The notes under the pieces are model-generated. The model had not been told where the DNA came from, did not search any database, and saw only the letters and a list, made by a program, of their open reading frames with translations. A program made the translations under genes and the position numbers. From NCBI RefSeq assembly GCF_013409065.1, contig NZ_JACBZP010000001.1:1054001-1118000 (forward strand): a stretch of 64,000 nucleotides of DNA, given 5' to 3'. Source of the stretch: Spelaeicoccus albus. Lineage in GTDB: Bacteria; Actinomycetota; Actinomycetes; Actinomycetales; Brevibacteriaceae. This document shows, piece by piece, positions 27,427 through 56,260 of the stretch (positions within the stretch are counted from its first letter, which is position 1; each line of letters begins with the position of its first letter).

Positions 27427-27472
27427 GACCTCGGGTGAATCCGGCGTGGATTCAGAGGCTTCTCCCGAGGTC
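27427..27472. terminator. Nested hairpin between convergent genes
   Basis: GACCTCGGG (27427-27435) pairs with CCCGAGGTC (27464-27472), and inside it TGAATCC pairs with GGATTCA around a 5-nt loop. It lies between the fusion gene and the opposed Gfo/Idh gene and includes the stop codon of the latter (27452-27454). Confidence 0.5.
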
Positions 27473-28789
27473 CAGATCGGCGATGTCCACGGCCTCGCCC
27501 GTCGCGAGCGAAGCGTTTCCGGCGATGCCGACGGCGATCGCGCGCAACCCGTCGTCGAGCCCGGCGGGTCGACCGAGCGGGTCGTCGCCCGGGCCGTCGA
27601 GGACGTCGCGCAAAAGCAGGTCGTCGCCGCCGCCATGCGCGCCGGCCGCGGCGAATTCGTCAACGCCTCGCGCGACGTCCCAATGCGTTTGTACGACAAG
27701 CCGTTCGCCGGTGGGCCGGACGGAGTTCGTTTCGGCGGCGGGCGTCGCGCTCGGATCGAGTGTGACCGTGCCATCGGCGTCGGGGATGACGGCCCCGCGC
27801 TCGACCACATCGAGTTCGGCGCGGCCCTTCGTGCCATTGACGGCGACCCGATAGCCCTCCCACGGGCAGTGCGCGTTGAGAGAGTAGCTCATCGACGGCC
27901 CGCCGGCATAGTCCACGACGAGTGACAAATTGTCCTCGATGGTGATGCCGGTGCCGAAGACGTCCAGGTCGCGGCGGTAGCCGTCATACGATTCGTTGTC
28001 GACGTAGAGCTCCCGAAGCCGGTCATCACAGCGCGCGTCGAGCGCGAACGGTGTTTGTTGCGGGCGGTCGCGCGGATCATTGTGGTCGATGCCGCGTTTC
28101 CGTGCGTTTTGGTCCCCATAAAACCGCAGACCGCCGGAGGCGAAGACGCGCCTCGGAACGTCGTCGATCCACCAGTTGACCAGATCGAAGTGGTGCGAAG
28201 CCTTGTGCACGAGAAGGCCGCCGGAATTGGCCTTGAGCCGGTGCCATCGACGGAAATAGTCCGCCCCGTGCACCGTGTCCAGCATCCAGTGGAAATCCAC
28301 CGAGGTCACAGCGCCGATCCGACCGGAGGCGATCACCTCCTTCAGTGCACTGTTGCGCGGGGAGTAACGATAGTTGAAGGTGACGACGACGTTGCGGCCG
28401 GTATCGTCGATGGCTGCGACGATGCTTCGAGCTCCGGCCGGATCGATCGTCAACGGCTTCTCCACGACGACGTCGGCACCGGCGCGCAGCGCCCGGACGA
28501 TGTATTCGGCGTGGGTGAAGTCGGGACTGGTGACAATGACTCGATCGATGTCGTGGCCGGCGATGACGCGTTCGAGTTCACTCGGGTCGAACCCGACAGG
28601 AGCGGGCCCCCCGTCGGTGATCGCCTCGACTCGGCGTCGGTAGTGCGCTGCGCGCCCGGCATTCGAATCGCCGATTGCGATCAGCCGAGATTCCGCCCGA
28701 CGGCTGACGGCGTCGATGTACATCTGTGCTCGCGATCCGGCCCCGACCAGGGCGTACCGGTGCTGCCGAGGTGCAGTGGATTCAGACAT
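27452..28789 (-). CDS. Gfo/Idh/MocA family oxidoreductase
   Basis: A 445-residue NAD(P)-dependent oxidoreductase. The nucleotide-binding motif YALVGAGSRAQMYIDAV is at the N-terminus, the EKP motif is in ADVVVEKPLTIDPAG, and the C-terminal substrate domain has FNYRYSPRNSALKEVI and GGLLVHKASHHFDLVNWW. The HKASHHFDL segment and the long insert with several His/Asp residues recall dehydrogenases and glycosidases acting on sugar or amino-sugar derivatives, but no specific reaction can be assigned. The ATG at 28789 has GAGGAG 5 nt upstream. A LacI-type palindrome at 28804-28819 overlaps its promoter region. Confidence 0.83.
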   Translation of the reverse strand: MSESTAPRQHRYALVGAGSRAQMYIDAVSRRAESRLIAIGDSNAGRAAHYRRRVEAITDGGPAPVGFDPSELERVIAGHDIDRVIVTSPDFTHAEYIVRALRAGADVVVEKPLTIDPAGARSIVAAIDDTGRNVVVTFNYRYSPRNSALKEVIASGRIGAVTSVDFHWMLDTVHGADYFRRWHRLKANSGGLLVHKASHHFDLVNWWIDDVPRRVFASGGLRFYGDQNARKRGIDHNDPRDRPQQTPFALDARCDDRLRELYVDNESYDGYRRDLDVFGTGITIEDNLSLVVDYAGGPSMSYSLNAHCPWEGYRVAVNGTKGRAELDVVERGAVIPDADGTVTLDPSATPAAETNSVRPTGERLVVQTHWDVARGVDEFAAAGAHGGGDDLLLRDVLDGPGDDPLGRPAGLDDGLRAIAVGIAGNASLATGEAVDIADLDLGRSL

Positions 28790-28819: not shown

Positions 28820-28868
28820 TTATACTCATCAACAATTGAATCGTTTTAGAATTTCGCATCGTCTGTGA

Positions 28869-40777: not shown

Positions 40778-42355
40778 TCAGCGGCCGGTGAGAGCGCGAA
40801 TGTCGGGACGCAACTGCCGGGACAGCGGACCGTCCAACGGGCGGTAGTCGACGCCCGCGGAGTCCAGACGTTCCAAATGTCCGCCGCGAAGGCGCCGCTC
40901 GAAATCGGCGTACTCGCCGGGCTCGCTCCACGCCAGCTCGGCGAAGGCAGCTAGGCGCGGGTAGGCGTGGTAGTCGCGAATGCCTTGGGTGTCGAGCCAT
41001 TCGGTCCACAGCTGTGCCTGAATGCCGGCGATCTGCGCGCCGCTTTGATCGGCAGCTGTGCGCATGCCGGGCGTCACGGCGTCGAATTCGTATAGCGTGC
41101 GCATCGGCAGCACCGGCTCGCAGGCGCTGGGCTCGTCGCCCGAATCACTCGGCCGGTAATCGAGGTACAGGTGCGAGCAGCACGAGACAATTGTGTCGTA
41201 GCCGGCCCCCAGGCAAGCTTCGACGCCGTCCGCGTTCGACCATGCGTTCACGAGAGCGCTGGTCGGCAGCGCGGCCGACACCGCTTCGTGCCACACGCCG
41301 GCCCGACGCCCGCGGGCTTCGATATGAGCCACCAGCTGGGCCAGGAACCAGCCGTGCAGCTCTTCGACCGAGTTCAGACCGACGTCCGTGGCGCGCTGCC
41401 GGACGTCTGCCGACTCCTGCCAGCGCCGGTACGGCACCTCGTCGCCGCCGATGTGGATGACCGGCGACGGGAAGACGTCCATCACTTCGTCCAGGACCGT
41501 GCGGAAGAAATCGAGCGTGTAGTCGGATGGGTCCAGGATGCAATCGTTGACGCCCCAGTCCGTCCACACGTCGACGTCGGGGGCGCCGACCCCGAGCCGC
41601 GGGTAGGCGGAAATCGCCGCGACGGAATGCCCGGGCACGTCGATTTCCGGAATGACCGTGACGCCGCGCTCGGCCGCAAATGCGACGATTTCGCGCAAAT
41701 CCTGTTTGGTGTAGAAACCCCCGTGCGGCCGGCCGGCATAATGTGCCGTGCCGTCCGGAGCCCAGGCCGCGAGACTGTCGGCGCGGTAGGAGGCAGCCTC
41801 GGTCAGCAGCGGAAACGCGTCGATGGGCATCCGCCATCCCTGGTCTTCGGTCAGGTGCAGGTGCAGTGCGCTCAACTTGTGCGCGGCGGCGATGTCGATG
41901 AACCGCAACACTTCCGCTTTGGGAACGAAGTGCCGGGCGACGTCCAGATGTACGCCGCGGAAGCCGAACCGGGGCGCATCCTCGATCTCGGCGCGCGCAA
42001 GGCGCACCGGCGCAGTACGCGGGGCCGGAGCCGATGCGAATGCCTCGGGCCCGGCGAATTGGCGCAGCGTCTGCAGCGCGTGGAGCACGCCGATTTCGCC
42101 GGCAGCTTCGATCCGGACGGTTTCGTCGATGACGAGCCGGTACGAGCCGTCCTGCAACGCGTCGTCCCGCGTCAGCATCAGCCACGCGTCGGCGTCGACG
42201 AGCTCGGTGGGGGAGCCGAGCCAGTCTTCGACAAACCGTCGCTGCACGGTCGTCAGCGGCAGGTCGCCGGCGATCCGGACGACGCCGGGCACCTCGACGT
42301 CGCCGCCGGTCTCGCGTGCGGACGTCGGGCTGGGCACCAAGGGAGGCATGGTCAT
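40778..42355 (-). CDS. Beta-N-acetylhexosaminidase, GH20
   Basis: A 525-residue GH20 enzyme without a signal peptide, so probably intracellular. It has the N-terminal GH20b-like domain (to about residue 125), then the catalytic barrel with FGFRGVHLDVARHFVP, LHLHLTEDQGWRMPID, VTVIPEIDVPGHSVAAIS and the catalytic Asp-Glu in VIHIGGDEVPYRRW (about residues 302-303). The C-terminal part has IQAQLWTEW. It would remove terminal GlcNAc or GalNAc from imported glycans. The start overlaps the upstream GH20 gene by 4 nt. It is the last gene of the LacI-GH20-GH20 operon. Confidence 0.92.
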   Translation of the reverse strand: MTMPPLVPSPTSARETGGDVEVPGVVRIAGDLPLTTVQRRFVEDWLGSPTELVDADAWLMLTRDDALQDGSYRLVIDETVRIEAAGEIGVLHALQTLRQFAGPEAFASAPAPRTAPVRLARAEIEDAPRFGFRGVHLDVARHFVPKAEVLRFIDIAAAHKLSALHLHLTEDQGWRMPIDAFPLLTEAASYRADSLAAWAPDGTAHYAGRPHGGFYTKQDLREIVAFAAERGVTVIPEIDVPGHSVAAISAYPRLGVGAPDVDVWTDWGVNDCILDPSDYTLDFFRTVLDEVMDVFPSPVIHIGGDEVPYRRWQESADVRQRATDVGLNSVEELHGWFLAQLVAHIEARGRRAGVWHEAVSAALPTSALVNAWSNADGVEACLGAGYDTIVSCCSHLYLDYRPSDSGDEPSACEPVLPMRTLYEFDAVTPGMRTAADQSGAQIAGIQAQLWTEWLDTQGIRDYHAYPRLAAFAELAWSEPGEYADFERRLRGGHLERLDSAGVDYRPLDGPLSRQLRPDIRALTGR

Positions 42356-43860
42356 GAGGGTTCCAATCGGTTGATGCTGGCTCTATCAGATTTGGCGCCG
42401 ATTCTCCGGCAATCCAATGTGAACGTCGAATAGTTCGCCGGTGACGGTGAGTCCCAAACGCGCTGGCTGAACGACTGCAACCAGCCGAGAACGTTTTCGG
42501 CGACTTCCTGCTCGGTCATCGTCGCGGGCGAATCGCACCAGATCGACAGCACGGCTCCGTCGACAGAGGCGGACCGATCGAGGTCCTGATCGCTCCCGCC
42601 CGCAGTGCCCATGAAGCGGCGCACGTGCCAATTCCGGTATATGCCCTCCGGACTCTTTCGGATGTCGTGTCCGGGAGGCTCATCCGCCGAGAGGATGAAG
42701 TACAAGTAGTCGCCATTTCGGTTGACAAGGGAATAGCCGGCCTGAGCCAATTCCGCGGCGGACGGAAACGACGCGTTCCACCGAATCCAGCAGTCGATTT
42801 GCACTGAGCCGGCGATCGCGATGCTTCCGGTGCGTGGATCGACGTGATCGTTCCACATCTTTGCTCGCTTCCCGCGGGAATGGACGAGGTCGGCCAGGTC
42901 GTTCATGTAGATCGTGTAGCCGTCGTGAGCTGACAACGGGCGCCCTCGACGGTCGGAAGCATACGCGGCGAGACAGGGAAACAGCCCGGGGTCGCGCAGC
43001 GATTCATCTTCCCAGGGAGCCGCGAAGAACTCGTCCCCGCCGATGTCGAACCATCGGCCGTCAAAAAGATCGGCCCATTCGGTGATGACACGCTCCACGA
43101 GCCTCCGCGCGGCCGGCAACGAGAAGTCGAGCTTGTCGAAGTGCATCCGTCCGTGCCTGTCTCGCAGCGCGAATTCGGGATGCGCGCGGGTGATCGCTCG
43201 CGCGTGCGCCGGCGAATCGAATTCGGGTATGACAGTGACGTGATGCGCCGCGGCCGTGTCGAGGATCGACGCGAGGTCCTCGCGGCTGAGCGCCGGTGTG
43301 CTCACGATCTCGGGGTGGGCGCGGCATTCGAGCCCGACGCCGCTGTTGTCGTTCAAGTGCAGATGCAGGGTATTGAGTTTGAGCCAGCCGAGTTCCCTGA
43401 TGAATTTCTTGATCCAGCCGGGGGTGAAGTACTTGCGCCCGATATCGAGCATGACGCCGCGTTGCGGATAAACCGGCCAGTCGACGATATCCGCGTCGAC
43501 TCCACCCGTTCGCACAAGCTGCAACACGGTGCGCGTTGCGTAGTAGACGCCGGCAGGATGTCGCGCCGATACGACGACGGCTTCGTCCGTCGCGATTCGA
43601 TAGCCCTCCTCGTTCCCGTTTTCGACGTCATTGCCGACTGGTTCCTCGGAGTACGCGAGTTCTAGGCACAGGTCGCCGCGCTCTCGCGCCGCATCGACGA
43701 CGACGGGCACGGTATCGGGAGCAAGTTCTGCCTGCACCATCACCGCCAGCCCACGGAGTTCCGGAGCATCACGTCGACTGAGCACAATTCTCTTGAAGTC
43801 CGTGACGACGCCCGTGGCCGGACGCCGGACCTGCACGGCCGGGACAGTAGCGGAACTCAT
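42352..43860 (-). CDS. GH20 family glycosidase (beta-N-acetylhexosaminidase-like)
   Basis: A 502-residue GH20 protein with no signal peptide. The barrel has PQRGVMLDIGRKYFTPGWIK, LNTLHLHLNDNSGVG, VIPEFDSPAHARA and the catalytic Asp-Glu in WFDIGGDEFFAAPW (about residues 274-275). It is clearly divergent from the GH20 encoded next, so another linkage is likely (for example lacto-N-biose or beta-GlcNAc in another context). The ATG at 43860 overlaps the LacI stop by 4 nt. The frame remains open to 44514 upstream, but that part is antisense to the LacI gene and Arg-rich, so it was excluded. Confidence 0.88.
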   Translation of the reverse strand: MSSATVPAVQVRRPATGVVTDFKRIVLSRRDAPELRGLAVMVQAELAPDTVPVVVDAARERGDLCLELAYSEEPVGNDVENGNEEGYRIATDEAVVVSARHPAGVYYATRTVLQLVRTGGVDADIVDWPVYPQRGVMLDIGRKYFTPGWIKKFIRELGWLKLNTLHLHLNDNSGVGLECRAHPEIVSTPALSREDLASILDTAAAHHVTVIPEFDSPAHARAITRAHPEFALRDRHGRMHFDKLDFSLPAARRLVERVITEWADLFDGRWFDIGGDEFFAAPWEDESLRDPGLFPCLAAYASDRRGRPLSAHDGYTIYMNDLADLVHSRGKRAKMWNDHVDPRTGSIAIAGSVQIDCWIRWNASFPSAAELAQAGYSLVNRNGDYLYFILSADEPPGHDIRKSPEGIYRNWHVRRFMGTAGGSDQDLDRSASVDGAVLSIWCDSPATMTEQEVAENVLGWLQSFSQRVWDSPSPANYSTFTLDCRRIGAKSDRASINRLEPS

Positions 43861-44861
43861 GGCCTCGTCGAGCCTCGAACTGTCAGCCCAGGCGTCGGTT
43901 CGTCGACGCCGTGAGCTGGTTTGCCATCCAAGAGATCGAGCAGTGCGGCGGCCGAACGTCGTCCGAGTGCAAACGGGTCGCGGCGTAGCGCTGTCAGCTG
44001 CGGAACGGTTGCCGTGCAGATCACGTGATCTTCCCACGAGACGATCGCCACGTCGCCGGGAACCGAGAGGCCCGCCGCATGGATCGTCGACATGCCCGAG
44101 ACAGCCAGGATTTCGTTGTCGAAGACTATTGCTGTCGGTCGGTTCGGCAGGGCAAGTAGTTGGCGCGTGGCTTCCACGCCGGAGCTTTCCGAGTAATCGG
44201 TGGACTGGCTGCCGATCGTCGTGATGCCCAAAGAGCTTGTCGCAGACCGAAAGGCATCGATACGGCGTCGCGTATGCGCCAGGTCGGCGGGTCCACAGAC
44301 ATGGGCGATGTTCCGGTGACCCTCTTCCGCCAAATGCGCAACGATGGCGTTCATGGCGGGTGTGTCGTCGATGGCGATGCCCGGGATGGACGAGTTGCCC
44401 GGGTCGCCGATGACGACGGCCGGCATGCGAAGGGCGGCAATCATTTCGGGCCGGGGGTCGTCGGTGCGCAGGTCGACGAGCAGGACGCCGTCGACGCGCC
44501 GTTCGGACCACCAACGGCGGTAGGTATTCATTTCGTCGTCAACCGACGGCGCAATCTGTAAAACGAGAGCAAGCGAAAGCTTGGCCAGAGCCGATTCGAT
44601 GCCGGCGATGAGCTGTAGGAAGAACGATTCGCTGCCGACGCGCTCCGGCGAGCGGGCGATCACCAAGCCGACCGCGCGGGCCTTGTCGGCTGACAGCGCG
44701 CGGGCCGCGACGTTGGGATGCCAGCCGAGTGCTTCGGCGCTGGCGCGGATTCGACTCCGCGTGTCGGCGGACACGCCAGGCTTGTCGTTGAGCGCGAACG
44801 ACACCGCCGCCTCGGAGACCCCGGCAGCGATGGCGATGTCCTTGATGGTGGCGCGGGTCAT
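43857..44861 (-). CDS. LacI family regulator of the N-glycan locus
   Basis: A 334-residue repressor. The HTH reads ATIKDIAIAAGVSEAAVSFA followed by LNDKPGVSADTRSRI, with the hinge LGWHPNVAARALSADK. The effector domain includes VGLVIARSPERVGSESFF and VDGVLLVDLRTDD. The start has AGAGGA just upstream. It heads an operon with two GH20 genes and is divergent from the ABC importer. The CTTAnnCGnnTAAG sites between them, and again before the GH85 gene, are its probable operators. Confidence 0.9.
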   Translation of the reverse strand: MTRATIKDIAIAAGVSEAAVSFALNDKPGVSADTRSRIRASAEALGWHPNVAARALSADKARAVGLVIARSPERVGSESFFLQLIAGIESALAKLSLALVLQIAPSVDDEMNTYRRWWSERRVDGVLLVDLRTDDPRPEMIAALRMPAVVIGDPGNSSIPGIAIDDTPAMNAIVAHLAEEGHRNIAHVCGPADLAHTRRRIDAFRSATSSLGITTIGSQSTDYSESSGVEATRQLLALPNRPTAIVFDNEILAVSGMSTIHAAGLSVPGDVAIVSWEDHVICTATVPQLTALRRDPFALGRRSAAALLDLLDGKPAHGVDEPTPGLTVRGSTRP

Positions 44862-44906
44862 GTCCTCTGCTTCTGTGGTTGACAGGTGAAAAACCAGTGT
44901 ACCCGG

Positions 44907-44960
44907 TTGCTGCTAAATCGGTTAAGTGTTTTAATGAGACGCGTCACTTAACCGCATAAG
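44907..44960 (+). promoter_or_regulatory. Promoter and paired operator-like sites, LacI/importer divergence
   Basis: TTGCTG (44907-44912), 17 nt, TTTAAT (44930-44935) reads toward the importer. CTAAATCGGTTAAG (44913-44926) and CTTAACCGCATAAG (44947-44960) fit CTTAnnCGnnTAAG with one and no mismatches. They also contain 10-bp arms CGGTTAAGTG/CACTTAACCG at 44919-44928 and 44945-44954. Confidence 0.7.
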
Positions 44961-45000
44961 TAATTGTTGCACCTGGACCCTCGTATCAAAGGAGAACGTG

Positions 45001-46293
45001 ATGAAGTTCGGCATACCAAGAAGGCGGGTGCTTGCCTGCATCAGCATTGCTGCGGCCGGAGCGCTCGGCTTGAGCGCGTGCGGCTCCGGAGGCGGCTCCG
45101 ACTCCGCATCCGGCAAGATCGAGGGCACCATCACGTTCCAGACGTGGAACTTGAAAGCCGGATATTCGAAGTACTTCAAGGGTCTGATCAAGGATTTCGA
45201 GAAGGCGCATCCCGGCGCACACGTGAAATGGCAGGATCAGCCCGCCGACAACTACGACAAAAAGGTCCAGTCGCAAGCTACGAACCACGATATGCCTGAT
45301 GTTCTCAACACCACGCCTGATTTGGCGTACCCGCTAGCCAAAGCAGGCGTCCTCATGAACGTCAGCGACGAAGATCCTGACGCCAAGAAGCTGTATCTGC
45401 CCGGTTCCTGGAAGTCGCTGACATACAAGGACCCCAAAGGCGTCTTTGCGTATCCGTGGTACCTGAACACGGGCCCGAACTTCTTCGACAAGAAACTGTT
45501 CAAAAAGGCCGGACTTGATCCGGAGAACCCGCCGGTATCTTACGACGAGATGCTTGCCGACGCCGTCACGCTGGGCAAGAACGTGAAAGGTAAGTACTAC
45601 TTGTGGGGCAATGTGCCGTCTATCAACGACATTGCGCTGTGGGGAGCTCCGCTGATGAACAAGGACGAAACTAAATTTACGTTCAACACGGACGAAGCGG
45701 CAGCCATGGTCGATAAGTACCGCAAGGCATACAAGGCTGGCGGCTTTCTGCCGGCCGGGCTCAACATGAAGTACACGGGCGTCGGCAAAGCCTTCATGAG
45801 TGGCAAGGTAGCCATGAACTCCGGCAGTGCCTATGACTTGCAGAACTTCAAGAAAAACGCGCCGACGCTGGCCAAGCATCTAGGAATCGGACCGGCGTTT
45901 ACCAATACCGGTAAGTATGAGATGTCCGTCCAAAGTATTTCCGTGGCCTCTCAGAGCGATCACTTGGCCACGGCCAAGGCATTCGCCCGGTTCGTGACGA
46001 ACGAGAAGAACCAAATGGCATTTGCCAAATTGGTCAATATCTTTCCGTCGACCGCTGGCACGTTAGACAAGCCGTTCTTCCGCAAATTGGATGGCACGAA
46101 GAATACCGAGCTGAGGGTTAAAGCCGCCAAACAGCTCAAGTCGGCTGTGGAGTACACGCCGATCAAGTTCACCCCGGAAATGGCCACTTATTTGCAACAA
46201 CAGCTCTCGGACGCGATTTTGGGCAAAGAACCGTCCAAGCAGGCGCTCGATAAGACCGTAGCGAAGGCCAACTCGTTGTTGGCGCAGGGCTGA
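45001..46293 (+). CDS. Oligosaccharide-binding lipoprotein (ABC, family 1)
   Basis: A 430-residue binding protein. The signal MKFGIPRRRVLACISIAAAG ends near the lipobox LSACGSGG. The mature part has ITFQTWNLKAGYSKYFKG, HPGAHVKWQDQPADNYDKKV and PDVLNTTPDLAYPLAKAG, typical of family 1 carbohydrate receptors. The ATG at 45001 has AGGAG 6 nt upstream; the GTG at 44998 is less well placed. The two permease genes follow. By position next to GH38, GH5_18 and GH20 genes it probably captures N-glycan fragments. Its stretches AAATTTACG and GTCAATATC look less GC-rich than the neighbours, a weak hint of different origin. Confidence 0.9.
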   Translation: MKFGIPRRRVLACISIAAAGALGLSACGSGGGSDSASGKIEGTITFQTWNLKAGYSKYFKGLIKDFEKAHPGAHVKWQDQPADNYDKKVQSQATNHDMPDVLNTTPDLAYPLAKAGVLMNVSDEDPDAKKLYLPGSWKSLTYKDPKGVFAYPWYLNTGPNFFDKKLFKKAGLDPENPPVSYDEMLADAVTLGKNVKGKYYLWGNVPSINDIALWGAPLMNKDETKFTFNTDEAAAMVDKYRKAYKAGGFLPAGLNMKYTGVGKAFMSGKVAMNSGSAYDLQNFKKNAPTLAKHLGIGPAFTNTGKYEMSVQSISVASQSDHLATAKAFARFVTNEKNQMAFAKLVNIFPSTAGTLDKPFFRKLDGTKNTELRVKAAKQLKSAVEYTPIKFTPEMATYLQQQLSDAILGKEPSKQALDKTVAKANSLLAQG

Positions 46294-46295
46294 CT

Positions 46296-47258
46296 ATGGC
46301 AGGCGTCAACACGGCGGCCGGCGCACGGCGTGCCGAGGCCGAGATCGCTGGTCCGGCCGCCCGTCCCGAGAGGCGGGCGGTGGCCAAGCTCAACGGGCAG
46401 TTTTCACCGTGGCTGTTTCTGGCCCCCGCCCTCATCATCACGCTGGCATTTGTGGTGTACCCGTTCCTTCGAACGATCACCACGTCATTCACGTCGGCGA
46501 CACCGTTCGATGCCGGGGAGTTCGTCGGCATCGACAATTACCGGCAGCTGTTTGCCGATCCGCTATTCTGGGTGGCGCTTCGCAATAGCGTGCTCTATCT
46601 GGCGGTCGTGCCGGTCATGGTGGTGCTGCCGTTGCTGCTGGCTCTGCTCGTGCAAAAAACCGTGCCGGGAATCGGGCTGTTCAGGACTGCGATCTATACG
46701 CCGGTCGTCGCCTCGATGGTCGTCGTGGTCGTCATCTGGCAATGGATGTTCGACGACCGCGGGCTGATCAACAGCTTGTTGCAAACGCTGCACGTCATCT
46801 CCAGCCCGATTCCGTTCCTCTCCAATGCCTGGCTCATCTTGGTGTGCGCCATGATTGTGACGATCTGGAAGGGCCTCGGTTATTACATGATCGTGTACCT
46901 GGCCGTGCTGGCGAACGTTCCCCGTGAATTGAACGAAGCAGCCGAAATCGACGGTGCCGGCCCGATTCGCCGCTTCATGACCGTGACGGTGCCTGCCATG
47001 CGGTCGACCATGGTGCTGATCGGCGTGATCTCGTCGGTTGCAGCGTTTCGCGTTTTCACTGAAGTGTATTTGCTTGCCGGCCCCACAGCGGGGCCCGGCG
47101 GTCAGGACTCCACCCTCGTCACGCTGATCGAGTCGTCGGGGACGGGCCTCACCGCGCGGCTCGGCTATTCGTCGGCGGTCTCAGTAGTGCTGTTCGTGTT
47201 GACAATCGGACTGCTTCTGATCAACCTTCGCGTCACGCGCAGTAAGGACAAATCATGA
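46296..47258 (+). CDS. Sugar ABC transporter permease (MalF/UgpA type)
   Basis: A 320-residue permease with six membrane segments from about residue 38 (PWLFLAPALIITLAFVVYPF). The EAA loop is LNEAAEIDGAGPIRRFMTVT. The first ~35 residues are a basic Ala/Arg-rich tail. The ATG at 46296 is 3 nt after the binding-protein stop, and its own stop overlaps the next start by 4 nt. There is no ATPase gene nearby, as usual for MsiK-dependent systems. Confidence 0.9.
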   Translation: MAGVNTAAGARRAEAEIAGPAARPERRAVAKLNGQFSPWLFLAPALIITLAFVVYPFLRTITTSFTSATPFDAGEFVGIDNYRQLFADPLFWVALRNSVLYLAVVPVMVVLPLLLALLVQKTVPGIGLFRTAIYTPVVASMVVVVVIWQWMFDDRGLINSLLQTLHVISSPIPFLSNAWLILVCAMIVTIWKGLGYYMIVYLAVLANVPRELNEAAEIDGAGPIRRFMTVTVPAMRSTMVLIGVISSVAAFRVFTEVYLLAGPTAGPGGQDSTLVTLIESSGTGLTARLGYSSAVSVVLFVLTIGLLLINLRVTRSKDKS

Positions 47259-48148
47259 GCGCCGCGTCCGATCTCGCCCGGCCGCGACGTCGGCGGCGCC
47301 GCTTCACCACCGCCGGCGGCGACAAGCTGACCCGTACCGAACTCGTCGTCCGGTACACGTTGTTGCTGGTCGTCGTGGCAATCACGATCGGGCCGTTCGT
47401 GTGGGAATTCCTGACTTCCATCAAGGGCCACGGAGACGATCTGTACGCCCAGCCCCCGCAATGGCTGCCGAAGGACGCGAACTTCGACAATTACGTGCGC
47501 GTCAACAACGTGATTCCCGTGCTGCGATTCGTGCTCAATTCGCTCGTCGTGGCAACCGCGAACGTGGCAATGAACGTCATGGGATCAGCGCTCGCCGGCT
47601 ATGCGCTTGCCCGGCTGAAGTTCCGCGGCCGGAAGGTCGCCTTCGGGGTATTCCTCGCCGCACTGCTCATCCCGCAGGAAGCGGCGATCATCTCGGTGCT
47701 GCAGATGGTCAACCACATCCACCTGTCCAACACCCTCGTCGCGGTCGTCCTGCCCGGCTGCATTGCCTCGCTCAACGTGCTGCTCATGATGAACGCGTTC
47801 TCGGCCATCCCCAAAGAGATCGACGAAGCCGCGGTCATCGACGGCGCGAATGCGTGGAAGCGGTTTTGGCGGATCGGCCTGCCGGCCGTGAAGGGCACGA
47901 TGGCAGTCGTCGGCCTGCTGTCGTTCATGGGCGGATGGGACGACTTCTTGTGGCCGCTGCTGGTACTGAACGACACGGACAAGTACACGCTGACAGTAGG
48001 ATTGAATTACCTGCAGGGCACCTTCAACCAGGATCCCCGAGTAGTCGCGGCGGGCACGATCATTGCCGTGGCCCCTCTCATTGCCCTGTTCCTCATTCTG
48101 CAAAAACAGTTCTTCAAAGGCGTCGGTGAAGGCGCGATTAAGGGTTAA
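47255..48148 (+). CDS. Sugar ABC transporter permease (MalG/UgpE type)
   Basis: A 297-residue permease with six membrane segments (VVRYTLLLVVVAITIGPFVW first). The EAA loop is IDEAAVIDGANAWKRFWRIG. It pairs with the upstream permease, with ATGA coupling. The GH38 gene starts 6 nt after its stop, which links import directly to mannose trimming. Confidence 0.9.
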   Translation: MSAASDLARPRRRRRRFTTAGGDKLTRTELVVRYTLLLVVVAITIGPFVWEFLTSIKGHGDDLYAQPPQWLPKDANFDNYVRVNNVIPVLRFVLNSLVVATANVAMNVMGSALAGYALARLKFRGRKVAFGVFLAALLIPQEAAIISVLQMVNHIHLSNTLVAVVLPGCIASLNVLLMMNAFSAIPKEIDEAAVIDGANAWKRFWRIGLPAVKGTMAVVGLLSFMGGWDDFLWPLLVLNDTDKYTLTVGLNYLQGTFNQDPRVVAAGTIIAVAPLIALFLILQKQFFKGVGEGAIKG

Positions 48149-48153
48149 TCCAC

Positions 48154-51100
48154 ATGCACCACAATGAAACACTCACCATGGGCCGGCTGCGCCGCGTGCT
48201 CGCCGAGCGCATCAGGCCGGTCGTCCACGAGGCCGTCGCGCCGCTCGCGATCGAAGCATGGCATGTCGGCGACGGGCGCGGCGAACCGGTGCCGCCGGCA
48301 GTCGCGCTGCCGGGCGGCGACCCGGAAGCCGCCGCCGCTGCCGGCGTGCGCTACGAGCCATTCGCCGTCGGCCGGAAGTGGGGGCCGGCGTGGGGCACCA
48401 CGTGGTTCCACGTCACGGGCAATGTTCCGGACGACGCGGGGGACGACGTCGAGCTCATCGTCGATTTGGGCTGGCAGGACCACTCGCCGGGCTTTCAAGC
48501 CGAGGGCCTCGTCTACCGGCCCGACGGCAGCGTCGTCAAGGCGTTGAACCCGCGCAATGCGTGGATTCCGGCAGTAGCCGGCGAGTCCGTCGATCTTTAT
48601 ATCGAAGCCGCCGCAAATCCGCTGCTGCTCGACGTCCACCCGTTTCTCCCGACCGAGGACGGCGACAAGGCCACTGCCCGGGCCGAGCCGATCTACACGC
48701 TTGCCCGGGCCGACATCAACGTCTTTCACCGGCACGTGTGGGAGCTCGTGGGCGACTTCGAGGTGCTCGGCGGACTGGCCGCCGAACTCGGCGATACCGG
48801 ACGCGGCCGCGAACTCCTCGGCGCGATTGCCGGAGCGCTGGACGCCGTCGACCTCGGCGACGTGGCTGGAAGCGCGTCGGCCGCCCGGGCGCGGCTGGCC
48901 CCCATGTTCGACAGGCCCGCCGCGGCGAGCGCACACCGGCTCACTGCCATCGGCCACGCCCATATCGACTCGGCGTGGCTGTGGCCGGTCCGTGAAACAG
49001 TGCGCAAGGTGGCCCGAACCAGTTCGAACGTGCTGGGGCTCTTGGACTCCGATCCGGATTTCAAGTTCGCCATGTCCTCGGCCCAACAATACGAGTGGAT
49101 CAAGGATCACCGGCCCGAACTGTGGGACCGGGTCAAGGACGCCGTCGCCGGCGGCAGGTTCATCCCCGTCGGCGGAATGTGGGTCGAATCGGACACCAAC
49201 ATGGTCGGCTCGGAGGCCATGGCCCGGCAATTCATTTACGGGCAGCGGTTCTTCCGGGAAAACTTCGGCGTGACGTGCAAAGAGGTATGGCTTCCCGATT
49301 CGTTCGGCTATTCGGCGGCGCTGCCGCAAATAGTGAAGTCGGCAGGTGCCCGGTGGTTCTTGACGCAAAAGATTTCCTGGAACCAAGAGAACCCGTTCCC
49401 GCATCACACGTTCCAATGGGAAGGCATCGACGGCACCCGGGTGTTCACGCACTTCCCGCCGGCCGACACGTACAACTCGGACCTTTCGGCGAAGGAAATC
49501 GGACACGCTGAACGCAACTTCCGCGACAAGGGAGCCGCAACCCGGTCGCTCGTCCCGTTCGGATGGGGCGACGGAGGCGGGGGCCCGACCCGGGAGATGC
49601 TTGCCCGCGCCAAGCGGACGCACGACCTGGAAGGCTCGGCACGCGTCAGTATTGAAAGCCCGCGCGAGTTCTTTGAAGCTGCCGAAGCCGAATACCCCGA
49701 CGCCCCGGTGTGGAAGGGCGAGCTCTACCTCGAACTGCACCGCGGCACCTACACGTCGCAAGCGCTGACCAAACAGGGCAACCGCCGTAGCGAACATCTG
49801 CTGGCCGAAGCCGAACTGTGGTCGGCCACCGCCGCCGTGTACGCCGGGCATGCGTATCCGTATGACGACTTGGAACGGCTGTGGAAGCTCGTGCTGCTGC
49901 AACAATTCCACGACATCCTGCCGGGCTCGTCGATCGCCTGGGTGCACCGCGAGGCCGCCGAGAACTACGCGCAGGTCGCTGCCGAGCTGCGCCGGCTGAT
50001 CGATGCCGCGCAGTCCGCCTTGGACGCCGGCCGGCAGCTGGAGTTCAACGCGTCCCCATTTGCCCGCCACGGCGTCCCTGCGCACGCGGCGGCGGCGCCA
50101 AGCGCCATTAAACAAACCCGCGGGGTGAGCGTCGCGGAAGACGGCGGTGACGTCGTCCTCGACAACGGCGTCATCCGGGCGCGGCTCGATGCCCGCGGCC
50201 TGCTGACCTCCGTCTACGACATCGACGCCCGCCGCGAACTCATTCCGGACGGCCGGGCCGGCAACCTGCTGCAGCTGCATCAGGACTTCCCGAACATGTG
50301 GGACGCCTGGGATATCGACAGATTCTACAAGAACACGGCGGTCGACCTGACCGTTGTCGACGGCATCGACACCGACGGCACGGCAGTCGTCGTGCGGCAT
50401 TCATTCGGCGCCTCGACCATCACGCAGCGCATCAGCATCGAACCGGGATCCCGCCGCGTCGACTTCGAAAACGACATCGACTGGCACGAGTCCGAGAAAC
50501 TACTCAAGCTGGCGTTCCCCATCGACGTGCACGCGGATTCCGCAGCGTACGAAACGCAATTCGGGCACATTTTCCGGCCCACGCACGAGAACACGTCGTG
50601 GGACAACGCTCGGTTCGAGGTGTGCGCGCACCGGTGGGTACACGTCGGCGAAACCGGATACGGCGCTGCCGTGGCAAACGACTCGACCTATGGCCACGAC
50701 GTGTCCCGGCACCCGAGCATTGCCGGCGGCACGTATTCGACGGTGCGGCTCTCGCTGGTGCGCGGGCCGAAATTCCCCGATCCGCGCACTGACCAGGGCC
50801 GGCACGTCACTCGCTGCAGCCTCGTGGTCGGCGCCGAGATTCCGGACGCCGTCGAGGCCGGATACGCGTTGAATCTTCCCGAACGCGCGGCCGGCGACTC
50901 CGACGACTCGGCATCACCGGCGGCCGTCGCCCCGCTGCTGAGCGTGGCCGAGGGACACGTCATCGTCGAGACCGTGAAGCTTGCCGAAGACCGCAGCGGC
51001 GACGTCATCGCACGCGTGTACGAGCCGTACGGTGCCCGGGCTCGCGCTCGGCTTTCCGCCGGATTCCCGGTGGCCAACGTCGTGCAGACCAACCTGCTCG

Positions 51101-51219
51101 AGGACGAGACCCGGCCGGACGGCGTCCGCGCGCAGGGCGACGGGATCGAACTGACGCTACGGCCGTTCCAGATCGTCACGGTGCGCTTGACGCCGGCAGA
51201 TGCGGATGGCCGGCGTTGA
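48154..51219 (+). CDS. Alpha-mannosidase, GH38
   Basis: A 1021-residue cytoplasmic GH38 enzyme, full length for the family. The Zn-binding His-Asp pair is in AIGHAHIDSAWLWPVRET (about residues 267-272), the nucleophile Asp in WLPDSFGYSAALPQI (about 380), and the later Zn ligand His in LLQQFHDILPGSS (about 585). The C-terminal beta domains are present (SVYDIDARRELIPDGRAGNL, ENDIDWHESEKLLKL). It hydrolyses alpha-linked mannose; in this operon the likely substrate is the arms of imported high-mannose N-glycans. The ATG at 48154 was taken as start. Its stop and the GH5_18 start overlap as TGATG. Confidence 0.92.
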   Translation: MHHNETLTMGRLRRVLAERIRPVVHEAVAPLAIEAWHVGDGRGEPVPPAVALPGGDPEAAAAAGVRYEPFAVGRKWGPAWGTTWFHVTGNVPDDAGDDVELIVDLGWQDHSPGFQAEGLVYRPDGSVVKALNPRNAWIPAVAGESVDLYIEAAANPLLLDVHPFLPTEDGDKATARAEPIYTLARADINVFHRHVWELVGDFEVLGGLAAELGDTGRGRELLGAIAGALDAVDLGDVAGSASAARARLAPMFDRPAAASAHRLTAIGHAHIDSAWLWPVRETVRKVARTSSNVLGLLDSDPDFKFAMSSAQQYEWIKDHRPELWDRVKDAVAGGRFIPVGGMWVESDTNMVGSEAMARQFIYGQRFFRENFGVTCKEVWLPDSFGYSAALPQIVKSAGARWFLTQKISWNQENPFPHHTFQWEGIDGTRVFTHFPPADTYNSDLSAKEIGHAERNFRDKGAATRSLVPFGWGDGGGGPTREMLARAKRTHDLEGSARVSIESPREFFEAAEAEYPDAPVWKGELYLELHRGTYTSQALTKQGNRRSEHLLAEAELWSATAAVYAGHAYPYDDLERLWKLVLLQQFHDILPGSSIAWVHREAAENYAQVAAELRRLIDAAQSALDAGRQLEFNASPFARHGVPAHAAAAPSAIKQTRGVSVAEDGGDVVLDNGVIRARLDARGLLTSVYDIDARRELIPDGRAGNLLQLHQDFPNMWDAWDIDRFYKNTAVDLTVVDGIDTDGTAVVVRHSFGASTITQRISIEPGSRRVDFENDIDWHESEKLLKLAFPIDVHADSAAYETQFGHIFRPTHENTSWDNARFEVCAHRWVHVGETGYGAAVANDSTYGHDVSRHPSIAGGTYSTVRLSLVRGPKFPDPRTDQGRHVTRCSLVVGAEIPDAVEAGYALNLPERAAGDSDDSASPAAVAPLLSVAEGHVIVETVKLAEDRSGDVIARVYEPYGARARARLSAGFPVANVVQTNLLEDETRPDGVRAQGDGIELTLRPFQIVTVRLTPADADGRR

Positions 51220-52463
51220 TGCCGCAGTCGACGCCTCAGCCGCCATCGCCGCGTTGGGGCGTCAATTACACGCCTCGCAATTCGTGGTTCCACTCGTGGC
51301 TCGATCTGAACCTGGACGACGTGCGCGCCGACTTCGATGCGATCGCCGGTTTGGGAGTCGACCATGTGCGGATCTTCCCGCTTTGGCCGATCTTGCAGCC
51401 GTCGCGCAGCCTGATCAACGCCAAGGCGGTCGGTGACGTCGGACGCGTCATCGACGCCGCGGCCGAGCGCGGGCTGGACGTGGCAATCGATGCCTTGCAG
51501 GGCCACCTGTCCAGCTTCGACTTCCTGCCGTCGTGGACGCGGACCTGGCATCGGCGCAACATCTTCACCGATCCGGCAGTCGTGGCGGCGCAAGCCGACC
51601 TGATCACGGCCCTCGGGCGCGCGGCCGCAAGCCGACCGAACGTGATCGGGTTGACGGTCGGCAACGAGACGAACCAGTTCTCCGCCGGCAGACATCCGGA
51701 TCCCGATGCCGTGACCACCGGGCAGATGTCCGAGTGGCTGGGACGCATGCTGGACGCATCCCGCAGCGGGCAGCCGGCCGGCATGCATCAGCATTCGTTC
51801 GACGACGAGGCCTTCTTCAATGACACGTCTGCCGTGACGCCGTCGATGGCCGGCCGAATCGGGGATACGACTGCCGTGCATTCGTGGGTGTTCACCGGCG
51901 TGGCCCGGCATTATGGCGCCGGGCACCCGGCAGTGCCCAACTTCGCCGACTACCTGGTCCAGTTGGGCAGTGCCTGGTCGGGCCCCGGCCGGCCCGTCTG
52001 GTTGCAGGAGATCGGCGCCCCCGCCCCCATCGTGCCGGCGACCGACGCGGCCGGCTTCCTCGATTCGAGCATTCGCAACACGATGGATAGTCCGGGGTTG
52101 TGGGGTGTCACCTGGTGGTGCTCGCACGACGTCGACAGGGGCCTCGCGGACTTCCCGGAACTCGAGTATTCCCTCGGGCTGATCGATTCCGGCGGTGCCG
52201 TCAAGCCGGCCGGGGCCGCGTTTGCCGAGCTGATCGCGGACCAACGAGCCCACCCCGTCCCGCCCCGACCGCGAACCGTCGCGGTCGCTTTCGACGACGC
52301 CGAGTCGCAGCGGTCGCTGACGGCGCCCGGCGGCCCCGTGCTGGACACCTGGATCGATCTTGTCCGCGGCGGCATCCGGCCCACACTGGTCCGGTCGAGC
52401 CTGGCGACGGACGCCGCGCATCTGGCCGCGCGCGGCGTCACCGAGGTGGTCTCGGCGCGCTAA
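51219..52463 (+). CDS. GH5 (subfamily 18-like) beta-mannosidase
   Basis: A 414-residue TIM-barrel glycosidase without a signal peptide. GH5-type features are VNYTPRNSWFHSWLDLNLDD at the N-terminus, GVDHVRIFPLWPIL, the acid/base Glu in LTVGNETNQFS (about residue 148) and the nucleophile Glu in VWLQEIGAPAP (about 263). The N-terminal block resembles GH5_18, whose bifidobacterial member splits Man-beta-1,4-GlcNAc, the core left after alpha-mannosidase and ENGase action. That fits its place right after GH38. The C-terminal ~65 residues (VAVAFDDAESQRSL onwards) are extra. ATG 51219 is preferred over TTG 51216. It ends tail-to-tail with the porter gene (4-nt overlap). Confidence 0.85.
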   Translation: MPQSTPQPPSPRWGVNYTPRNSWFHSWLDLNLDDVRADFDAIAGLGVDHVRIFPLWPILQPSRSLINAKAVGDVGRVIDAAAERGLDVAIDALQGHLSSFDFLPSWTRTWHRRNIFTDPAVVAAQADLITALGRAAASRPNVIGLTVGNETNQFSAGRHPDPDAVTTGQMSEWLGRMLDASRSGQPAGMHQHSFDDEAFFNDTSAVTPSMAGRIGDTTAVHSWVFTGVARHYGAGHPAVPNFADYLVQLGSAWSGPGRPVWLQEIGAPAPIVPATDAAGFLDSSIRNTMDSPGLWGVTWWCSHDVDRGLADFPELEYSLGLIDSGGAVKPAGAAFAELIADQRAHPVPPRPRTVAVAFDDAESQRSLTAPGGPVLDTWIDLVRGGIRPTLVRSSLATDAAHLAARGVTEVVSAR

Positions 52464-53905
52464 TTGCTTTCATGCAGGGTTTTGCCCGTCATGTGTTCGA
52501 GTTCGGCGCCGGTGGTCTCGGGAATCTTCGATTTGACGAAGAAGAACGAGATGACCGCGAACGCGGCGTAGACGCAGTAGACCGTGCCGAGGCCGATGTG
52601 TTGAGCCAAGAACGGGAACGACACGCTGACGAGGAAGTTGCACAGCCAGTTGCCGACCGCGCCGATGGCCAGCGCGTACGAGCGCATATTGTTCGGGAAC
52701 ATTTCGCCCAGAAGCACCCAGACCAACGGTCCCCAGGTCGCAGCGAAGAAGATGACGAAAAGATTCGCGCCGATCAGCGCGATGATGCCCCACGGTTCGG
52801 GCAGTGAAATGTTGTCGCCGCTGCCGACCGCGTGAAAGAACGACAAGGACGCCGCACCGAGGCCGACGAACATGCCGCACGAGCCGATCAACAGCAGCAG
52901 ACGACGTCCGAACTTGTCGACCCAGATGATTGCCACGAATGTGAGCGCCACGTTGATCACGGACGTGATGACGGATGTGATGAACGAATCCGATTCGCTG
53001 AACCCGACGGACTTCCACAAGGTCGTCGAATAGTAGAAGATCGCGTTGATGCCGACGAGTTGTTGCAGTCCGGCCAAGATGATGCCGACCCAGACGAGCG
53101 GTTTCAGACCGAACCGATGACCCTTGATATCACGGAAGCTGGTGCGCGCCTCTTGATGCAGGCTGCTGCGGATGTCGACGATTTTCCGGTCCGGATCGGG
53201 GTCGCCCACGACGGACCGCAGCACTCGAGCGGCCTCGATGTCCTTGCCGGCACGCACCAGGTATCGCGGTGATTCGGGGATGAGCAGCGACAGGATGCCG
53301 TACACGATTGCGGGAATCGCCCCAATGAGGAACATCCATCGCCATGCCGGCGCGCCCAGCCACAGCGTGTCGCCGGCGCCTCCGGCAGTGTGCGCGACCA
53401 ATGCATCGGACAACAACGCCGCGAAAATGCCGATCGTGATGGCCAGCTGATGGACGGACGTCAGAGCACCACGGATCTTTGCCGGTGCGATCTCGGAAAT
53501 ATAGGCCGGGGAGATGACTGACGCGATACCGATCCCGATGCCGCCGATGATGCGCCAGAGCATCAAGTCCCAGACGGTGAACGCGATGCCCGACCCGATC
53601 GAACTGAGAAGGAAGAGGACGGCGCCGAGCACCATCACGCGTTTGCGGCCCAGCCGGTCCGCAAGCTGTCCGGCATACCAGGCGCCGACGGCACAGCCGA
53701 GGAGGGCGACGGCGACCGCGAAGCCTTCGACGAAGGAACTCAGCGCGAAGTGGGCGCTGAGCGAGTCGACGGCCCCGTTGATGACCGCCGAGTCGAAGCC
53801 GAACAAGAATGCGCCGACGGCCGCCGAGATGCTCGCGGCGATGACCCTGCCGTGTCCAACCCGCTGTCCACCGTGCGACGCGCCGGGCTCTGCCTTGTCG
53901 GTCAT
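52460..53905 (-). CDS. MFS sugar porter
   Basis: A 481-residue, 12-segment transporter of the sugar porter family. Diagnostic motifs are GFDSAVINGAV, GQLADRLGRKRVMVLG, PAYISEIAPAKIRGALTS, PESPRYLVRAGK, GLQQLVGINAIFYYSTTLW and the C-terminal PETTGAELEHM. The ATG at 53905 has GGAGG 5 nt upstream; the longer open frame upstream is rejected. Its place between GH5_18 and GH85 suggests uptake of a monosaccharide such as mannose, but proton-coupled uptake of another hexose is equally possible. Confidence 0.9.
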   Translation of the reverse strand: MTDKAEPGASHGGQRVGHGRVIAASISAAVGAFLFGFDSAVINGAVDSLSAHFALSSFVEGFAVAVALLGCAVGAWYAGQLADRLGRKRVMVLGAVLFLLSSIGSGIAFTVWDLMLWRIIGGIGIGIASVISPAYISEIAPAKIRGALTSVHQLAITIGIFAALLSDALVAHTAGGAGDTLWLGAPAWRWMFLIGAIPAIVYGILSLLIPESPRYLVRAGKDIEAARVLRSVVGDPDPDRKIVDIRSSLHQEARTSFRDIKGHRFGLKPLVWVGIILAGLQQLVGINAIFYYSTTLWKSVGFSESDSFITSVITSVINVALTFVAIIWVDKFGRRLLLLIGSCGMFVGLGAASLSFFHAVGSGDNISLPEPWGIIALIGANLFVIFFAATWGPLVWVLLGEMFPNNMRSYALAIGAVGNWLCNFLVSVSFPFLAQHIGLGTVYCVYAAFAVISFFFVKSKIPETTGAELEHMTGKTLHESN

Positions 53906-54003
53906 GTCTGCCTCCAGTGCGTGCGCGCCAATTGCCGAACGTTCCGACACTACCGCCGACTCAGTGGATAGCCGTGAATTTCGATATCGCGAAATGGTTG
54001 CTG

Positions 54004-56199
54004 TTATGTCTCGCTGAGAGTTCGATGTGCCAGGACGCCGCGGCCGCGCGTTCCGTCTTGGGCGATGGGCACGATTTCCACACTGAGCCGGCCGGCGTCG
54101 ATCGGCAGATCGTGAGCGTAATACACGTTGCGGTGGACCCGCCCGATCCATATGCGTGAGCGGCCGTGTACGGCAAAGAGGTCATATGCCCAGCATCGCC
54201 GACCGAGCTCCCAGGATAAGTAGGCAGACGTCGTGTGGCGCGTGGTATCGACCCGGTCGATGCGGAAGCGGCGCGGGGGTTCGGGCCGCCGGGCAGCCGA
54301 TGGATCAACAGCCTTGAACTGGCCGATGTTCATGTCGATGGTTCCGCGGTGATCACCGTGGATCCTGAGTGAGATTTTGGCAACTGTGCGGCCGCGCTGG
54401 TGGTGCAGACGGGCGGACACGGTTCGCCATGCACCGCTTGGACGACCGTGCAGCGGAATCCACTCGGGTGATTCGGGGTCGTCCCGGAAGGTCAGTCCGA
54501 GCTCAATGCGGCCGGACGTGCCGGAGACCTTGATGGACACCTCCGATTCCCGGTGCAGCCGGACCTCGGTCTTGAAAAGGTGGAGCGTCACGGAATCCCG
54601 GTGCCGCGCGGTACCGGTGAGCTTGAGTGAATGGCCGCCGTCCCACGCTGTGGTCTCGTCCAGAGCGACGGCGGAGGTCGCATGGCCGCTCTCCTCGGTC
54701 CAGTACTGCCACGTCAGCGACGGGTCGGCGATGCCCGCGTTGTTCCACGGCCGGCGACCGGCGCGACGTCCTTCGATGGCAAATGCGGAGCCGACGCCGA
54801 TATTGAAGTTCGTGACAAGCGGCAGCGACGATATCGCCGATTTTTCCACGATGCTGTGCGCGACGCCGTCCCAGACGCGGGTATTGAGGATATCGGTGCG
54901 GTACGGCGGTTTGCGTGGTTCCAGTTTCCCGCTTTGGGAGGGATCGCCCTTGGGACCGGACCAGAATTTTTGTTCGTAGTCCCGATACTTCGCCCGTCCG
55001 GTCGCCGTGTCGGTGATGCCCTTTTGCGCGGCAGTGTTCCAATATTCGTTTTCGACGAACAAGGCCCAGCTGACCGGCGCCTTCGTATTCGGATTGGCGT
55101 ATGCGGAGAAATTCTCGCGCGGATTGAAACCACCCTGTTGGCATTCGGTCGATCCGAACGCTGCGGTCTTCGGGTCGAACCCGTGCCGTTTGACAGTATC
55201 CCGGCTGCCGGTGAGATCGGGATCGACTTTGGGCCAGTCGTAATTCATGAATATCGAATCGACTCCCGGGTCGGCGGGTGTACCGAGGGAGCCGACGTTC
55301 TTTTCGTTGATTTCGTTCTGGTAGTCGAGTTTGCCGCTGCCCGGCAGATCCGCGTCGTAATACTGGATGTACACATCGTCGTCGAGAGTTTTCATGTATC
55401 GGAACATCTCAAAAAGCGCCGTGATTTGAGCCTTTGTCACTGCCGCTTCCTGATTGATGAAATAGCCGTCGAAGCCAAAGTATTTCTTGATCTCGACGAG
55501 CTTCTTCCCGGCGGGAAACCCTCCGGACGCGTCCTTGTACACCCACTTGTCGAAATCGTCGTTCCGCGGCCAGAACCAGCAACCGATGGTGCGGGCGCCG
55601 TTCTTGTGGGCGGCCTCGGTCCAGCCCGGGTTTGGGATGTCGATGACTCCGTACCGGAGATCGTCATCGCCCGGATCCGGGTTCTTGTCCGAGGGAACGA
55701 CCTGGCCGTGCCAGCTGCTGAAAATGTCGATATACGGCCAAAAACGCTGCGTGTAAACCTGATCCTGACCACCGATGGGCTGAGCTCGGATGTCGTACAC
55801 GTCGCCGCGATAATCGCCGGAGACGGTGAGCAATTGCGTCGTGGGATCAAGGTCGGGATGTGCCTGGGTGGCGGTGAACGGCGCTATTCGCTTGGCCCGC
55901 GGGATCAGACACCGGAAGTGCCGCGCGTATTCGTCGGACTCCGGTGACCAGTTCAGCACGTCGTCGGAGAGGAATCCGTGAGTTGACGGGCCGGGCGGCA
56001 GGCCGCCGCTGCTCGGTGCGGGATATCCGGTGTCGTCCGCGTGAGCCGGCGTCGCGCCGACAATTTGCGGAGCGATAGCGGCTGCGGCAGTTCCGGCAAT
56101 GGCGACGCGCAGAAACGTGCTGCGCGTCATTCCGGCGTTGGCCGGCGGTCGGGGGTCGGCGAAATCCTTGGAGTGGGCGCGCGGGGATGAGACGGTCAT
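54004..56199 (-). CDS. Secreted endo-beta-N-acetylglucosaminidase, GH85
   Basis: A 731-residue enzyme with an N-terminal export signal (MTRSTFLRVAIAGTAAAAIA, cleavage near AHA-DD). The GH85 barrel shows YTQRFWPYIDIFSSWHGQVV, GWTEAAHKNGARTIGCWFWP, the catalytic Asn-x-Glu in FDGYFINQEAAV (about residues 247-249), DVYIQYYDADLPGSGKLDYQN and IFMNYDWPK. Beta-sandwich modules fill the C-terminal ~250 residues. The enzyme cuts the chitobiose core of N-glycans, freeing the glycan and leaving one GlcNAc on protein. The ATG at 56199 has GGAG 4 nt upstream. It lies apart from the importer operon but shares its operator motif. Confidence 0.88.
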   Translation of the reverse strand: MTVSSPRAHSKDFADPRPPANAGMTRSTFLRVAIAGTAAAAIAPQIVGATPAHADDTGYPAPSSGGLPPGPSTHGFLSDDVLNWSPESDEYARHFRCLIPRAKRIAPFTATQAHPDLDPTTQLLTVSGDYRGDVYDIRAQPIGGQDQVYTQRFWPYIDIFSSWHGQVVPSDKNPDPGDDDLRYGVIDIPNPGWTEAAHKNGARTIGCWFWPRNDDFDKWVYKDASGGFPAGKKLVEIKKYFGFDGYFINQEAAVTKAQITALFEMFRYMKTLDDDVYIQYYDADLPGSGKLDYQNEINEKNVGSLGTPADPGVDSIFMNYDWPKVDPDLTGSRDTVKRHGFDPKTAAFGSTECQQGGFNPRENFSAYANPNTKAPVSWALFVENEYWNTAAQKGITDTATGRAKYRDYEQKFWSGPKGDPSQSGKLEPRKPPYRTDILNTRVWDGVAHSIVEKSAISSLPLVTNFNIGVGSAFAIEGRRAGRRPWNNAGIADPSLTWQYWTEESGHATSAVALDETTAWDGGHSLKLTGTARHRDSVTLHLFKTEVRLHRESEVSIKVSGTSGRIELGLTFRDDPESPEWIPLHGRPSGAWRTVSARLHHQRGRTVAKISLRIHGDHRGTIDMNIGQFKAVDPSAARRPEPPRRFRIDRVDTTRHTTSAYLSWELGRRCWAYDLFAVHGRSRIWIGRVHRNVYYAHDLPIDAGRLSVEIVPIAQDGTRGRGVLAHRTLSET

Positions 56200-56231
56200 A
56201 TCGCTCCAATTCGAGTGTGATCCAGATAACG

Positions 56232-56260
56232 CTTATAGGTTAATCGCTTAAGTTCTTAAG
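56232..56260 (-). promoter_or_regulatory. Operator-like sites and -10 box of the GH85 gene
   Basis: GTTAATCGCTTAAG (56239-56252) fits CTTAnnCGnnTAAG with one mismatch, and the perfect palindrome CTTAAGTTCTTAAG (56247-56260) overlaps it. On the minus strand TATAAG (56237-56232) could be the -10 box, with the operators where a -35 box would lie. Confidence 0.6.

Follow-up and report, generated by a model that had tools for sequence, protein, structure and literature searches.

A stretch of 64 kb from the single-contig, 4.03-Mb genome of Spelaeicoccus albus (hereafter the window) contains three short palindromes which very probably serve as operators for the LacI-family protein whose gene lies at 43857-44861. 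To judge by sequence comparison, this protein would act as a local, autoregulated repressor of a regulon for the utilization of N-glycans. Two of the palindromes lie between lacI and the divergently oriented genes of an ATP-binding cassette (ABC) importer, the third one upstream of a gene for a GH85 endo-beta-N-acetylglucosaminidase. The three sites and a further palindrome are:

44913-44926, putative operator 1, CTAAATCGGTTAAG, one mismatch to the motif, in the divergent lacI/importer promoter
44947-44960, putative operator 2, CTTAACCGCATAAG, no mismatch, in the lacI/importer gap
56239-56252, putative operator 3, GTTAATCGCTTAAG, one mismatch, 40-53 bp upstream of the GH85 start (56199, minus strand)
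56247-56260, overlapping palindrome, CTTAAGTTCTTAAG, two mismatches, real in the sequence, doubtful as an operator

An earlier note on this DNA had placed sites at 44913, 44947 and 56239 with one, zero and one mismatches, respectively, and both coordinates and counts were confirmed. Operators 1 and 2 share the 136-bp gap between lacI (minus strand) and the importer operon (plus strand), with a distance of 34 bp from centre to centre. All three sites are palindromic, contain a central CG and are situated near the promoters presumed to be regulated, as expected of LacI-family operators. The second palindrome described at 56247-56260 does exist, but its role as a separate operator was rejected, since it is devoid of the nearly invariant central CG and reaches only 5.7 bits with the model described below, compared to 12.3-20.9 bits for the three sites. 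By itself, it is probably not an operator.

The whole genome was scanned with IUPAC patterns approximating the full weight matrix. Allowing one mismatch, CTTANNCGNNTAAG was detected at 13 places, three of which are the sites in question, 44947 being the sole perfect match. CTTAANCGNTTAAG, with up to two mismatches, also gave 13 places, and the only three with one mismatch are 44913, 44947 and 56239. For CTWAANCGNTTWAG (up to two mismatches), 57 places were found; 44913 is the sole perfect match, while 44947, 56239 and a single position elsewhere, 3678237, differ by one mismatch. Reversed patterns used as controls revealed 124, 107 and 353 places. Sixteen of 18 other genomic places that were inspected are located inside an open reading frame (ORF) of at least 100 amino acids, which is weak evidence in GC-rich DNA, as these ORFs are mechanical. 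The two remaining ones (115571 and 511192) are outside of such ORFs; in the case of 645842, a 217-aa ORF additionally begins 19 bp downstream. The site at 3678237 is embedded in AT-rich DNA, and inspection by eye of a 3-kb stretch there disclosed no recognizable sugar gene. Due to the few strong sites, the 16 places within ORFs and the lack of a recognizable sugar gene at 3678237, a genome-wide regulon was rejected. The earlier note had called for a scan of this kind; with CTTAANCGNTTAAG, the closest matches are the three promoter sites. Since the patterns were partly shaped by the three sites themselves, a test was sought that makes no use of the window.

LacI homologues (E≤1e-55) are encoded in 154 of the 396 genomes of the order, S. 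albus included. Forty regions were taken from the upper part of the homologue list, not strictly in order, and supplemented by two Microlunatus loci. Homologues of GH38, GH5_18 and the solute-binding protein (SBP) of the importer occur together in 14 of these 42 loci, which constituted the training set. A palindromic expectation-maximization search of their 48 upstream regions, from which the window was excluded, yielded CTAAANCGNTTTAG with a log-likelihood of 174.7, compared to 28.2-38.0 in ten dinucleotide shuffles; the search prescribed a palindrome but not its letters. Sites of at least 13 bits are present in all 14 training loci and in 25 of the 48 upstream regions. Within the window, the model of the relatives ranked 44913 first (20.9 bits), 44947 second (14.9 bits) and 56239 third (12.3 bits), followed by 28836 (9.2 bits) and 56247 (5.7 bits). 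The window thus possesses CTWAANCGNTTWAG-type sites upstream of N-glycan genes, at ranks one to three, and it likewise shows the synteny of LacI with GH38, GH5_18, the SBP and two permeases. A GH85 homologue exists in five training loci, three of which (L061, L068, L083) have an operator of its own for this gene; in L062 and L070, GH85 comes after the importer genes and is oriented like them. Among 59 other genomes of the own family, LacI was not detected at E≤1e-50, and close footprinting was therefore impossible. A scan for tandem repeats gave nothing of use.

The model was then applied to loci chosen by another gene. GH5_18 homologues were identified in 66 of the 396 genomes (own included). 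From 76 listed matches, 40 regions were taken, with regions used before and some matches further down the list omitted; none belongs to the training set. A site of at least 13 bits was found in 25 of the 40 test loci, and one of at least 15 bits in 20. With 200 column-permuted models, the mean was 2.3 loci and the median 1, and none of them reached 25. Altogether, the test loci contain 41 sites of at least 13 bits, 37 of which lie no more than 300 bp upstream of a gene of the locus, a space that makes up 2.6% of the 744,211 bases, and none inside such a gene. The remaining four are situated just upstream of genes for GH125 (L160, 16921; L166, 3284), GH92 (L149, 17417) and N-acetylglucosamine (GlcNAc) 2-epimerase (L163, 17190). 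In L160 and L166, a GlcNAc 2-epimerase gene stands behind GH125, and in L149, an EndoS-like GH18 gene is near GH92. The predicted regulon is hence wider in the relatives, where it takes in GH125, GH92 and GlcNAc 2-epimerase.

The protein encoded at 43857-44861 comprises the N-terminal LacI helix-turn-helix (HTH) and the periplasmic-binding-protein-like effector domain by which the family is recognized, and its recognition helix reads VSEAAVSFALN. Seventy-two loci with a LacI homologue meeting the selection were classified by the residue following AVS in this helix, and sites of at least 11 bits were counted. Such a site is present in 32 of the 35 F loci, in all 11 L loci, in 12 of the 20 Y loci and in none of the six H, K or M loci; when the 14 training loci are left out, the values are 19 of 22 for F and 11 of 19 for Y. 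The third base of the half-site also varies with this residue. For Y, it is T in 18 cases, A in one and G in one, for F or L, it is A in 60, T in 15 and G in three, i.e., Y goes with CTTAA half-sites and F or L mostly with CTAAA (Fisher p 1.8e-9, a value overstated since the proteins share descent). The window itself fits this rule badly, having F in the helix yet T in five of six half-sites. The S. albus genome encodes 23 LacI-type HTHs, a number that lends some substance to the idea that the sites are operators of another LacI-family paralogue or of a global regulator, the adjacent LacI having other targets. Moreover, of ten further regions without such a LacI homologue, four (L155-L158) contain the motif and six do not, and the presence of the motif before such genes in these four indicates that the regulator can be encoded elsewhere. 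However, none of the 22 other HTHs shares its recognition helix with the 43857-44861 protein or has the xxAVSFALN type that is paired with the motif in relatives, and three or four strong sites in a genome are unlike a global regulon, so that we consider control by another protein improbable. The small regulon which the earlier note had assigned to this LacI protein gains support from the first three ranks of a motif obtained free of the window, from the same motif before the same genes in relatives and from the uniqueness of the helix in the genome.

The genes of the locus are:

40778-42355, minus strand, GH20 (PF00728), overlapping the next GH20 gene (42352-43860) by 4 bases
42352-43860, minus strand, GH20 (PF00728), overlapping lacI by 4 bases
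43857-44861, minus strand, LacI-family regulator (PF00356, 2.7e-13, residues 5-50; PF13377, 2.8e-31, residues 174-332)
44998-46293, plus strand, SBP of the ABC importer (PF01547), alternative ATG at 45001
46296-47258, plus strand, ABC importer permease 1 (PF00528)
47255-48148, plus strand, ABC importer permease 2 (PF00528)
48154-51219, plus strand, GH38 alpha-mannosidase (PF01074, PF07748 and others)
51216-52463, plus strand, GH5_18 beta-mannosidase (PDB 7lr7, E 5.5e-151; Cutibacterium acnes enzyme 6gvb, E 1.1e-105)
52460-53905, minus strand, major facilitator superfamily (MFS) sugar porter (TIGR00879, 377.6 bits; cut-off 237.8)
54004-56199, minus strand, GH85 endo-beta-N-acetylglucosaminidase (PF03644, E 1.6e-53; PDB 2vtf, E 5.7e-31)

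The GH5_18 gene at 51216-52463 gave no Pfam match; 6gvb is a characterized enzyme, and 2vtf is a solved structure of an endo-beta-N-acetylglucosaminidase. As predicted from the sequence, a set of genes for N-glycan utilization is assembled here, with an endoglycosidase, an importer, an alpha-mannosidase, a GH5_18 beta-mannosidase and hexosaminidases, by which N-glycans would be cut, imported and dismantled. The best solved-structure matches of the GH20 enzyme encoded at 42352-43860 are lacto-N-biosidases (9fyn, E 6.4e-42; 4h04, E 3.3e-37), and its substrate may therefore be other than plain terminal GlcNAc. Contrary to the earlier note, in which the porter gene was taken to be oriented oppositely to GH85, it shares the strand of GH85; its likely start at 53905, preceded by GGAGG, is 98 bp past the GH85 end. 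Because of this position, the porter is probably on the GH85 transcript, and operator 3 probably controls GH85 and the porter. GH85 alone as the distant target was rejected, since the porter follows it. The predicted members of the regulon are thus lacI-GH20-GH20, SBP-permeases-GH38-GH5_18 and GH85, probably along with the porter. GH38 and GH5_18, as parts of the importer operon, and probably the porter are additions to the regulon originally proposed.

Possible promoters were tentatively assigned from weak matches:

44896-44925, minus strand, putative lacI promoter, TTAACC-18-TACACT, 8/12 matches, -35 within operator 1
44907-44935, plus strand, putative importer promoter, TTGCTG-17-TTTAAT, 8/12 matches, operator 1 in the spacer
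56232-56259, minus strand, putative GH85 promoter, TTAAGA-16-TATAAG, 9/12 matches, operator 3 in the spacer

Operator 2 falls just after the importer start predicted from the weak promoter match. This layout suits steric repression and autoregulation. On the other hand, two operators at a distance of 34 bp in a divergent promoter offer room for a more complex control, and it is conceivable that the LacI protein, once bound to the sites, is an activator or has a dual role. Most LacI-family members repress, and the location of the sites within or just after the putative, though weak, promoter elements is what a repressor would call for; activation is therefore slightly less probable still than control by another protein. 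Chance, i.e., the occurrence of short AT-rich palindromes in AT-richer intergenic DNA, finds some backing in the lack of enrichment of the loose pattern in the window but is strongly disfavoured, as the sites hold ranks one to three with a model that never saw the window, have fewer mismatches to CTTAANCGNTTAAG than any other place in the genome and have the same placement in other genomes.

The loose pattern, with up to two mismatches, has eight matches in the window compared to 6.8 expected, and 36 of 100 shuffles reach eight; the case therefore rests on the close matches and their placement. Several observations weigh against control of the three sites by the adjacent LacI protein. Most sites of the relatives are stronger than operators 2 and 3, and stricter promoter scans of the lacI/importer gap and of the region before GH85 found no promoter. 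No site of at least 13 bits was detected in 15 of the 40 test loci, the test genomes include close kin of training genomes, so that the two sets are not wholly independent, and seven of the 200 permuted models reach at least ten loci. Two of them reach 21; one of these differs from the model only by an exchange of near-equal columns, which is not true of the other. In the GH5_18-GH38 loci L155, L156, L157 and L158, strong sites (20.8-21.1 bits) occur although no LacI homologue is encoded in the region covered. A second GH5_18 locus, this one with LacI, is present in the L155 genome (L142) and in the L156 genome (L135), which suggests control in trans for these two. The identity of the window LacI to its relatives amounts to no more than 37-50%. 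In a tree of 73 LacI proteins, it belongs to a group of 20 rows, of which 17 others derive from N-glycan loci, with a support of 91/90, which is below the starred level. Its sisters therein are Microlunatus proteins (81/61) whose loci lack homologues of the remaining window genes, and the LacI proteins from N-glycan loci are dispersed across the tree, those of L062, L063, L070, L084, L091, L093, L146, L148, L149 and L165 and an f11 group being placed outside the group of the window.

Some relatives of the window LacI are associated with other genes. In the Microlunatus loci L053 and L054, which encode the closest relatives found (49-50%), a site CTAAGGCGCTTAAG is located just after lacI (L053, 11023; L054, 11020), and in L054, it precedes a gene encoding an ABC permease domain. 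L058, L065, L072, L073, L075 and L078 contain Y-helix relatives adjoined by a different ABC importer, lack GH38 and GH5_18 and possess CTTAAnCGnTTAAG-type sites, e.g., CTTAAGCGGTTAAG in L075. It seems that a sister regulator, dedicated to another sugar, relies on almost the same operator. Within the window, the fourth-ranked site (28836-28849, TTGAATCGTTTTAG, 9.2 bits) is situated between a GFO/IDH/MocA oxidoreductase gene (27452-28789, minus strand) and a lipoprotein-SBP-like ORF (28973, plus strand). It may be an operator of another LacI-type regulator, whose HTH is encoded at approximately 24371-24511.

For the locus as a whole, the mode of action that we infer comprises binding by the LacI protein, repression, an inducer and a place of work for each enzyme. 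When the inducer is missing, dimers would occupy operators 1 and 2 at lacI and the importer genes as well as operator 3 at GH85, and transcription would be blocked. The inducer, probably a mannose-containing breakdown product taken up by the ABC importer, would release LacI. GH85 would then be made and would cut N-glycans off glycoproteins, its secretion being assumed from this role. The importer would take up Man(n)GlcNAc, which GH38 and GH5_18 would dismantle, and the two GH20 enzymes would serve GlcNAc-capped chains.

LacI repressors that govern a local sugar regulon are already known, and the regulator type is ordinary. The surveys PMC4052901 and PMC4746261 describe LacI regulons with the same combination of a LacI protein, a palindrome with a central CG and an autoregulated set of importer and glycoside hydrolase genes. 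N-glycan utilization is not among the pathways given in Table 2 of the latter, a Bifidobacterium survey with 18 groups lacking an assigned pathway, and no N-glycan LacI regulon was found in the accessible part of the former. The N-glycan-processing locus 1 of C. acnes (PMC6160142) likewise comprises GH38, GH5_18, GH20, ABC permeases, an SBP and a regulator gene; however, GH85 is not a member, and the accessible text gives no regulator family, motif or operator. The high-mannose N-glycan operon of Bifidobacterium longum (PMC10154615) is similar in GH38 and in the import and breakdown of N-glycans but has two or more GH38 genes and additionally GH125, and its regulation is not described in the part available. 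In the bifidobacteria-like locus L160, the GH5_18 of which is nearest to BlGH5_18 (E 1.2e-227), the motif precedes GH38, the importer genes and GH125-epimerase. NglR of B. longum subsp. infantis (PMC9599254) is also predicted to control an N-glycan gene cluster but is a paralogue of the ROK-family protein NagR and not a LacI protein. The degradation of host N-glycans by Streptococcus pneumoniae (PMC9603416, PMC7075642) is inducible as well, though by the two-component system TCS07 and not through a LacI repressor. A literature search retrieved no LacI regulon named for N-glycan use; many subscription papers and supplements were outside of this search, and unpublished status is therefore not claimed.

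Taken beyond S. albus, it is somewhat more probable than its opposite that the loci belong to one unnamed LacI regulog for N-glycan catabolism, which takes in GH38, GH5_18, the importer, GH85, GH92 and GH125-epimerase across this actinobacterial order, bifidobacteria-like genomes included, and whose operator specificity varies with one helix residue. For the N-glycan foraging genes of actinobacteria, among them bifidobacteria-like loci, a concrete regulator and operator are hereby proposed, and the motif, which in relatives extends the regulon beyond the core cluster, can serve to find further members.

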